NCBI RefSeq assembly: GCF_022201045.2
Contig: NC_068561.1
Coordinates: 17,424,501 to 17,488,500, forward strand
Origin: Citrus sinensis
Taxonomy: Eukaryota; Streptophyta; Magnoliopsida; Sapindales; Rutaceae
DNA: 64,000 nucleotides
Direction of reading: 5' to 3'
Shown here: positions 20,534 through 22,605 of the stretch, one piece after another
Layout: each line of letters starts with the position of its first letter
How positions within the stretch are numbered: the stretch's first letter is position 1
Translations under genes and position numbers: made by a program
The notes under the pieces: generated by a model
Database searches by the model: none
What the model was told of the DNA's origin: nothing
The model's input: only the letters and a program-made list of their open reading frames with translations

Positions 20534-20819
20534 ACGAAAAAGTAACGAGCAATTTGCAGAAAAGAGAAAGAAAAAAGAAGAAGAAGAAGAGAAAAGAAAA
20601 AAGAAACAGATTAGAGATAAAAATAAATAAAAAAAATGAAAGAGGACAAAAATTGTAACTATTATTATTATTAAAAGTAATGTTCTTAATAATAATAATT
20701 ATAATCATAATTATATAATAAAAATAATGAGAATAATACATTAAAGGGTATTATTATAATTTATAATAATTTATTCTGATTTTAAAATAAAAATATTAAT
20801 AAAGTTTATTCTAATTTCG

Positions 20820-22378
20820 GGACCTGTCTACCTTACAGATTCTGTATGTAACGGACTGTGAGTTGACAAGAAGAGAGATGGATGCGTGACACGTGGACGG
20901 CGGATGGACCGGGAGATAATATCTGGAACCGGCCATTCCGGTTTTCTTCCGGTGACAAACTGAACTCCTCCCGGTTGCTGACCGGTAACCCGTCACTGAA
21001 ATTGGTTAAAAAAACATTACGCTTGCCGTGTAGGGAATTATTATTCAGACTGGTGCATATAGCAAGCGAGGTGACGATGCATCTCCAGCAACAGCATGGT
21101 GTAAAAAACCCCTCCAAAATTAATTATCACTTTGGATCCACGGTGTGTGCTGCAGTTTAAGCTTGAGCAAGAGGTGAAAATGCGGCCAATATATCTACTC
21201 CAGGGGCACTGATGTCTGGCTGAAATGATTTTTGAGCATCAGATCAGTAGAATTCATTATCGTATTTACATAGGTGACAACGCAAAGTTTTAAAATAATG
21301 TATACCTTCAAGATTTCTGGTACAATTGCATTTGGCCCGCGTAAAGAAAAGCCAACGACAACAGGGGCATCAAAATCCTTAACTGCTTCAGTTTTTAATA
21401 TTTCTGCTACAGGCGTTCTATAATCCAGATAGAAAGAGTGATTTAATTATTGGAAAAAAATAAAATGAAATAATAAGGATATAAAATATAAACTTTGTAG
21501 ATTCCTTGTAGGAAATAAGGATGCTGAAGCTATCCTGGGTTACGGCCACTGCTGGCAATGAAACAACAAAGCAAACTTTGTCGAATTCGTTGTTTAACAA
21601 GACTGATCCGGCAGCACCAGCTTTGCGAACCTCAGGATAGTTTTTAAATGATAGACATATAACAATCTTTCCCTTAACTAAGCTACCGTTAACGCACCCT
21701 GGATTACACTCCCTGAAATTGAACAAAATTTCCAAATTATTGTGTTTTTGTACGAGGAAGAAAAAGATTTGAAATGAAACATTAAGAAGAAAAAGATTCG
21801 CAATGAAACATTATGAATAACGTACTGAGAGGAAAGTTCTTGACATGATTCAGAAATTTCTTTCCCTTATACCAGCGGAAATCTTCTTCCTTTCATAGCG
21901 AAAGAATTAATTGAATATCCCTGGAGTATAGAGATAGTTAGAATGCTTATAGAAAGTTTGGATGCATATAGAATTTGAAATACAAGAACTTTGATTCTTA
22001 CAGATATTGCCTTTCCATTTCCAAGAGCAACTTTATCAACAAATAGGCGATCTGTAGTACTAGCCGCTACTGACATCAACCACGGAGCTACGCTAGCTGT
22101 CAAACCTGGACCACTATTGCCAGCTGAATTTAAGGTCAGGACTCCTTTTGCCATCGCATGAAAAGCACCAATTGAAATGGCGTCCTCGCTAAAGTCACGC
22201 GTCTTTTGTTACTCCACATCCGGTTGCACATAAACCATTAAAGCCGGTTTCCCATGCTTTGGGTTATTTTTTAGCATTATTTTTCTGACCGTTCCCAACC
22301 ATCCATCTTTCTCTATCCACATTCAAAGATTGAGATTGCAAGTCCGTTACATACAGAATCTGTAAGGTAGACAGGTCC
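20820..22378. mobile_element. Pack-MULE carrying subtilase exons
   Basis: This 1559-bp element has perfect 38-bp terminal inverted repeats beginning GGACCTGTCTACCTTACAGA (20820-20857, mirrored at 22341-22378). It is flanked by a 9-bp duplication CTAATTTCG (20811-20819 and 22379-22387), the length typical of Mutator-like elements. The paralogous block near 29295 keeps the site with a single ttaatttcg, that is, the empty target. There is no transposase. The inside is filled with minus-strand exons and introns of a subtilisin-like protease gene, so it captured genomic DNA rather than cDNA. Confidence 0.93.
21163..22195 (-). pseudogene. Captured subtilase (cucumisin-like S8 protease) fragment
   Basis: Five exon pieces are read on the minus strand, with introns kept. 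About 22195-22002: [12 protein letters not shown] then [18 protein letters not shown] (oxyanion Asn region). About 21920-21826: [17 protein letters not shown]. About 21712-21498: the PA-like domain with GKIVICLSFKNYPEVRKAGA and VVSLPAVAVTQDSF. About 21417-21306: DAPVVVGFSLRGPNAIVPEI. About 21226-21163: PDISAPGVDILAAFSPLAQA. The catalytic Asp, His and Ser segments lie outside the captured part, and a stop follows RFPLV, so no protease activity is possible. Family identification is firm; the donor gene is not in this window. Confidence 0.9.
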
Positions 22379-22605
22379 CTAATTTCGATTCTTACAGTTA
22401 ACCTCATTCTCATTCTAATACATTTCAATTACAGACTAGTGAATGCATGATTACAAGAGTGAATGGATAAAATTTATCAATCACTGCTGCTTAAAAAATC
22501 TGTACAACTTAATTTTCTTGATAACTTCTCTAAATGATTACAAGTGAATTAAATGAAAAAATATGTAAATTACCCGTTATGTACGTTTAAGCTTTGAAAT
22601 TGTAT

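Follow-up and report, generated by a model that had tools for sequence, protein, structure and literature searches.

Subtilase exons set between perfect inverted ends on contig C6 of sweet orange (Citrus sinensis) raise the question of what they belong to: a host gene with repeats at its edges, or a mobile element that has captured part of a gene. If the latter, from which gene and which carrier was the element built, and in what order did its copies spread? Pack-MULEs have the inverted ends and 9-11-bp target duplications of Mutator-like elements (MULEs), carry captured gene fragments and lack a transposase. In the abstract of PMC8277862 gene capture by MULEs is still called perplexing, and a 2026 review (PMC13317346) holds that an undiscovered capture mechanism may remain. 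We analysed the locus in the window, by which we mean the whole 64,000-nucleotide stretch of DNA, and searched one haploid assembly of the genome (299.7 Mb in 11 contigs).

Results

A Pack-MULE with perfect inverted ends

The element spans window positions 20820-22378 (1,559 bp) on contig C6. Its left terminal inverted repeat (20820-20857, plus strand) and its right one (22341-22378, minus strand) match at 38 of 38 bp, and the 9-bp target-site duplication CTAATTTCG was read in the sequence at 20811-20819 and again at 22379-22387. The perfect ends, the duplication and the exact borders had all been called in an initial annotation of this DNA, and identical coordinates were recovered here. The ends are related to those of a Mutator-like element, being 91% identical to the ends of an element on C7 that contains a PF10551 transposase region. 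Inside lies a piece of an unrelated host gene, 1,039 bp that are 96% identical to a subtilase gene elsewhere in the genome, on C8. No transposase of the element's own was found among its six open reading frames, which gave only a PA-domain match below the cut-off when compared with Pfam; the longest stop-free stretch is 130 codons. Rfam and tRNA scans of the window returned no matches. With MULE-type ends, 9-10-bp duplications, a captured subtilase fragment and no transposase, 20820-22378 is near certain to be a Pack-MULE, as originally proposed.

Five full-length copies and the order of their spread

A genome search with the element gave at least 62 matches, five of which are full length and lie on four chromosomes: the window copy on C6 (window 20820-22378), C9:6201103-6202661, C3:33290639-33292197, C5:3396965-3398519 and C3:32861517-32863045. 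All five have inverted ends that match at 38/38 bp. Their duplications (CTAATTTCG, AATGTTTGG, TATTTTAAC, AAAAAAGACC and TCATAAGTA) are all different, 9 bp long in four copies and 10 bp in one. The annotation had suggested a genome search with the element's ends; that with the element adds four further full-length copies, each with its own 9-10-bp duplication, a recurrence beyond what chance would give. The element is present at five sites with separate duplications. Comparison of the 1.5-kb flanks of different copies gave short or low-identity matches only, none exceeding 126 bp at 75%. In the C9 copy the left and right flanks resemble each other (77% over 570 bp), which places that copy in or beside another duplicated sequence.

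The five copies differ pairwise by 1 to 8 substitutions (0.06-0.52%), and the window copy shows a single difference from its closest sister in 1,559 sites. The C5 copy and the 32.86-Mb C3 copy have private deletions of 4 bp and 30 bp, respectively. Ancestral states were taken from the donor for element sites 995 and 1243 and from the carriers for sites 1381 and 1395. The derived state at site 995 is found in the C6, C9 and 33.29-Mb C3 copies, those at sites 1381 and 1395 in the C6 and C9 copies, and that at site 1243 in the C6 copy alone. Because these derived sites are nested, the window copy stands at the tip of the ladder with the C9 copy as its sister; the same sites leave the C5 and 32.86-Mb C3 copies unordered relative to each other. 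This order of events is well supported.

A paralogous locus without the element

A paralogous locus without the element was aligned at 29009-29883; it is a tandem paralogous site and not an allele. When the element and one duplication were removed by script, the flanks aligned through the junction with 28991-29720, with 97.7% identity in the 554 columns of the right flank and 92.9% in the 294 of the left. The uninterrupted target site in the paralog, a single TTAATTTCG at 29292-29300, lies where the annotation had placed it and differs from the duplication at the first base (T for C). A genome search with 22388-22960 gave four matches: its own locus, the paralog at 98%, and two others, at 76% and 71%, that lie in the same C6 region.

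MULEs do excise, and in some cases precisely, so the paralog might be read as an excision product and not as a never-occupied site. It was checked for this, which the annotation had named as a finding against its reading, and neither a second duplication nor a visible footprint was found. The age of the insertion also argues against excision. With one difference in 1,559 sites from its closest sister copy, against 2-7% between the duplicated flanks, the element postdates the duplication of the locus, and an insertion so much later does not require an occupied paralog. We consider excision extremely improbable; the insertion at the window site came after the duplication of that locus.

Other repeats surround the site. 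A Copia-type element extends over window 10756-24710, with long terminal repeats at 10756-11082 and 24382-24710 that are 96% identical. Its reverse transcriptase is split by about 8.8 kb that contain several repeats, a CHX fragment and the Pack-MULE, and a 10-bp direct repeat, TTACAAGATT (14094-14103 and 22952-22961), flanks the insertion in the Copia element. A 3.1-kb repeat at 17139-20278 is 100% identical to C3:34610730-34613868 and 96% identical to C2:20917768-20920719, and is apparently another very young mobile element, judging from these matches. A repeat of about 0.87 kb at 15666-16540 recurs in at least 31 other places at 94-98%.

The captured block and its donor-like gene on C8

The captured subtilase sequence forms one block with four introns (element 340-1378, window 21159-22197, minus strand) and makes up 67% of the element. 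It gives one continuous alignment with C8:29455376-29456423, introns included, in which 1,009 of 1,050 columns are identical (96%); other subtilase matches in the genome reach at most 78% over comparable length. The annotation's view that subtilase exons had been captured with their introns retained is borne out by this alignment to an intron-containing gene, which came from the donor search and exon-intron comparison that it had recommended. By donor alignment, the block comprises part of one exon, three whole exons and part of a fifth, all on the minus strand, and the four introns have GT-AG borders. The first, partial exon (22002-22197) holds the oxyanion Asn region, and its translation includes NSAGNSGP...GNGKAIS. 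Exon 2 lies at 21826-21920, exon 3 at 21494-21712 (part of a PA domain, with a Pfam score just below the cut-off), exon 4 at 21306-21417 (TPVAEILK...VPEILK) and partial exon 5 at 21159-21219 (PDISAPGVDILAAFSPLAQA). Another finding that, by the annotation, would undo its reading is that the inverted ends are native untranslated regions of a full normal gene. That reading is rejected: the match of the C8 donor is confined to element 340-1378, and the ends match MULE-type elements that have no subtilase match.

The C8 gene was read in pieces, which contain what we take to be the Asp, His, Asn and Ser regions of a subtilase; S8 and fn3 score above the Pfam cut-offs and PA just below its own. The nearest solved relative of the tested part is cucumisin. 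By their positions in the donor, the regions that we take for catalytic Asp, His and Ser fall outside the captured block. An in-frame TAA at 21867-21869 (minus strand) in exon 2, invariant among the five copies, replaces a TAT (Tyr) of the C8 donor, and the captured frame of partial exon 5 is closed by a TAA (21157-21159) that spans the capture junction. A functional SBT4-type subtilase would have Asp, His, Ser and the oxyanion Asn in one open frame; the element has the Asn region only, and a frame with a stop. The captured part is best explained as a pseudogene fragment that would yield no active protease product.

Coding differences between the element and the C8 donor comprise 5 silent changes, 7 that alter an amino acid and one that creates a stop (TAT to TAA); with 8 amino-acid-changing codons (stop included) against 5 silent, the numbers are too small to speak to selection on the captured exons. 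When polarised by the 78% paralog, 8 of 11 of the differences fall on the element side, with 2 more ambiguous. Divergence from the donor is lower in the captured exons (13/672) than in non-coding sequence (16/365; Fisher p 0.029), a difference that could stem from gene conversion, from selection acting on the donor, or from chance. Among public proteins, the unspliced P0146 (13 member sequences) has the element's residues and the element's 11-bp intron deletion and is without the 2-bp intron 2 change common to all five copies. It is either one more copy of the element or a donor allele that is nearer to the element than the C8 gene is; given this ambiguity, changes that we call element-specific, the TAA included, may predate capture in the true donor allele.

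The carrier lineage and the origin of the ends

The outer segments of the element, 1-343 on the left (window 20820-21162) and 1374-1559 on the right (window 22193-22378), match elements that have no subtilase match, of which eight short ones (687-713 bp) were read. Among the relatives without a subtilase match, a 26,309-bp element at C7:19166704-19193012 is the closest; it is flanked by identical 9-bp duplications, and its left and right ends are each 91% identical to the corresponding segment. Both the C7 element and the Pack-MULE are without a stretch that is present in four short carriers, as seen by eye in the alignment. Exact duplications were found in five of the seven short carriers tested and were absent from C2a and C3c, C3d being outside the test; these carrier counts leave out partial end matches at C8:22915628, C9:19424314, C2:22275946 and C1:23820413.

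The C7 element contains a MULE transposase region (PF10551, E 7.6e-25) that is, on our own reading of its sequence, probably FAR1-like. A second MULE transposase region (PF10551, 8.2e-11) lies on the opposite strand, with a SWIM finger (PF04434, 7.5e-08) in the next open reading frame, and the transposase regions are spread over several frames. In view of the second region on the opposite strand, part of the 26.3 kb may be nested. MULE relatives with transposase regions are thus present in the same genome. The C7 element has a further 256-aa open reading frame without a Pfam match. A 25,857-bp insertion in CsOPT9 is mentioned in PMC9832951. We doubt that the C7 element is this insertion, as the lengths differ (26,309 vs 25,857 bp) and no obvious transporter reading frame was seen by eye in 1.7 + 2.0 kb of its flanks.

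A genome search with the end sequence at up to 3 mismatches gave 44 end places, ten of which are the two ends of the five Pack-MULE copies. All ten have T at end position 28, and this T was found on no non-Pack-MULE end among the 44. The C7 element has A at this position and 4 mismatches between its own two ends, and the eight short carriers have 4 to 20 mismatches between theirs (ungapped counts, some of them inflated by small gaps). As T28 is confined to the five copies and the carriers' ends are mismatched, the perfect 38-bp ends look derived; in the Pack-MULE founder one end was probably copied onto the other. A looser end search, also at up to 3 mismatches, gave 411 places, about 100 of them among the matches listed.

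A sibling family has the first 27 end bases in common with the Pack-MULE, followed by ACATA. It accounts for 20 of the 44 places exactly and for 25 with close variants, each of which stands alone in that search. This family may be related to active sweet orange MULEs. At one C1 locus, 5.5 kb contained neither another exact 12-base end nor another duplication, and lacked open reading frames of at least 100 aa; when 5.4 kb of this locus were used as a query, none of the 40 candidates scored was another full copy.

Capture junctions and a proposed mechanism

A 4-bp microhomology, AAGC (21159-21162), is common to carrier, donor and element at the left capture junction. At the right junction (22193-22197) it amounts to 2-5 bp, CA with the C7 element and AGTCA with one C4 short carrier, so that the homology with the closest carrier is 2 bp only. 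Under equal base frequencies, the chance of such microhomology at one junction is 0.016 for at least 4 bp and 0.16 for at least 2 bp. The microhomology favours, and does not prove, microhomology-guided (template-switched) repair; the two junctions fit gap repair and replication template switching alike.

We infer the following course of events. An element of the 26.3-kb C7 lineage would have lost its interior through a break or an interrupted gap repair. The repair polymerase would have used a few microhomologous bases to switch templates to the subtilase gene, today located on C8, and would have returned to the carrier after copying about 1.04 kb of genomic sequence there. The inverted ends of the founder would have been made identical, and a transposase acting in trans would have copied the founder to new sites one by one, with the window copy among the latest.

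Capture might instead have occurred by FoSTeST, rather than through the repair of a gap inside a resident element. The element has multiple copies, none of them linked to the donor (C8 vs C6, C9, C3 and C5), a pattern tied to FoSTeST by Tan et al. (PMC8277862). The junction microhomology is compatible with this route and equally so with gap repair, which would equally lead one to expect that the carrier lost its interior at the junctions; we regard FoSTeST as a tentative, somewhat doubtful possibility. For the whole account, a non-autonomous Mutator-like Pack-MULE of sweet orange that arose by template-switch capture and was mobilised in trans in a serial spread, we put the probability at about 90%.

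Gene models and transcripts over the element

Public gene model P0141, named 'subtilisin-like protease SBT4.4', covers 21157-22920 on the minus strand with five GT-AG introns and joins an exon in a CHX-type fragment (22920-22630) to the captured subtilase exons. P0127 threads onto both C3 copies and P0130 onto the 33.29-Mb C3 copy, and each of them threads onto the window element as well. P0142 threads onto the 32.86-Mb C3 copy with its private change included, and requires a 33-nt intron. Neighbouring reading frames at 4458-6713 match PF00999 and CHX17 domains. The CHX fragment at 22606-22959 gave no Pfam match; the CHX17_C label of P0141 is the database's precomputed one, which our own Pfam scan did not reproduce.

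Two further public entries bear on transcription. P0122 (68 aa, from one 936-bp contig of source lgn, which we take as assembled reads) consists of part of the first captured exon followed directly by sequence of the second, the natural 81-nt intron being absent. It stops after FPLV, at the element's TAA, where the C8 donor reads on. Being spliced and ending at the element's stop, it suggests a spliced element transcript, and that the element is transcribed and spliced to some extent; it may also stem from a donor allele with the same stop. P0121, a 100% match from 17 contigs, the longest of which is 1,559 bp, the element's own length, represents the unspliced form.

These models could be taken to mean that a true host gene of chimeric structure, which may have acquired a new function, brings the CHX fragment and the captured exons into one message. 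P0141 threads exactly onto 22920-21157 with GT-AG introns that avoid the TAA, but the alternative exon 2 splice site through which it does so, used also by P0130 and P0142, appears to result from fitting the models round the stop. Further models on C3 (P0127, P0130 and P0142) point the same way as P0141, yet the 33-nt intron of P0142 is implausibly short for a plant. One contig does encode a spliced product, P0122; this sole spliced product that is not a gene model, however, is spliced at the natural site and terminates at the TAA. The CHX-subtilase junction is known here from the gene model alone, and the captured block does not include the catalytic Asp, His and Ser regions. A chimeric gene is therefore very unlikely in our view. 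The gene models at three C. sinensis loci (one of them named SBT4.4) are transposon-borne fragments and could distort gene-family counts.

Discussion

The orange case is young enough that a donor-like gene, the two junctions and the carrier lineage can still be read, along with copies whose ends are perfect and, in large part, the order in which they spread. Sweet orange accessions allow a direct test of polymorphism. On a more speculative line, which we think improbable, the element would still be mobile in clonal sweet orange, its spliced transcripts would join host exons (here the CHX antiporter exon) and bypass the stop to yield a chimeric protein, and small RNAs against the donor protease gene, to which the element is nearly identical, would be possible.

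Like the Pack-MULEs of rice and other plants, the orange element has MULE inverted ends, duplications within the 9-11-bp range and captured fragments and is without a transposase. It differs from them in that the donor-like gene, non-capturing relatives with both ends, an empty paralogous site and the order of amplification can all be read in one genome, in which the five copies are less than 0.6% apart.

Among citrus elements, CitMule (Terol et al., 2015; PMC4334395) is a MULE of about 6.9 kb that encodes a transposase of 795-805 aa. It resembles the present lineage in its FAR1/MULE-type transposase, short inverted ends and 9-bp A+T-rich duplications, and differs from the 1,559-bp Pack-MULE in its size of about 6.9 kb and in having its own transposase gene; the comparison is by description, not by end sequence. 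In PMC9832951, 31 of 40 structural changes that arose spontaneously in sweet orange are ascribed to three MULEs; these share with the Pack-MULE the host species and recent MULE movement, again compared by description and not by their ends.

No earlier report of the orange Pack-MULE was found in the open-access literature searched. The Drosophila Ssk-FB4 Pack-MULE, described in PMC8277862, is likewise multicopy, lies far from its parent and has 9-10-bp duplications and microhomology at a junction. Its host is an animal, its polymorphism has been shown and proteomic support is reported, whereas the orange element is known here from sequence. The orange Pack-MULE is a new element of a known class.
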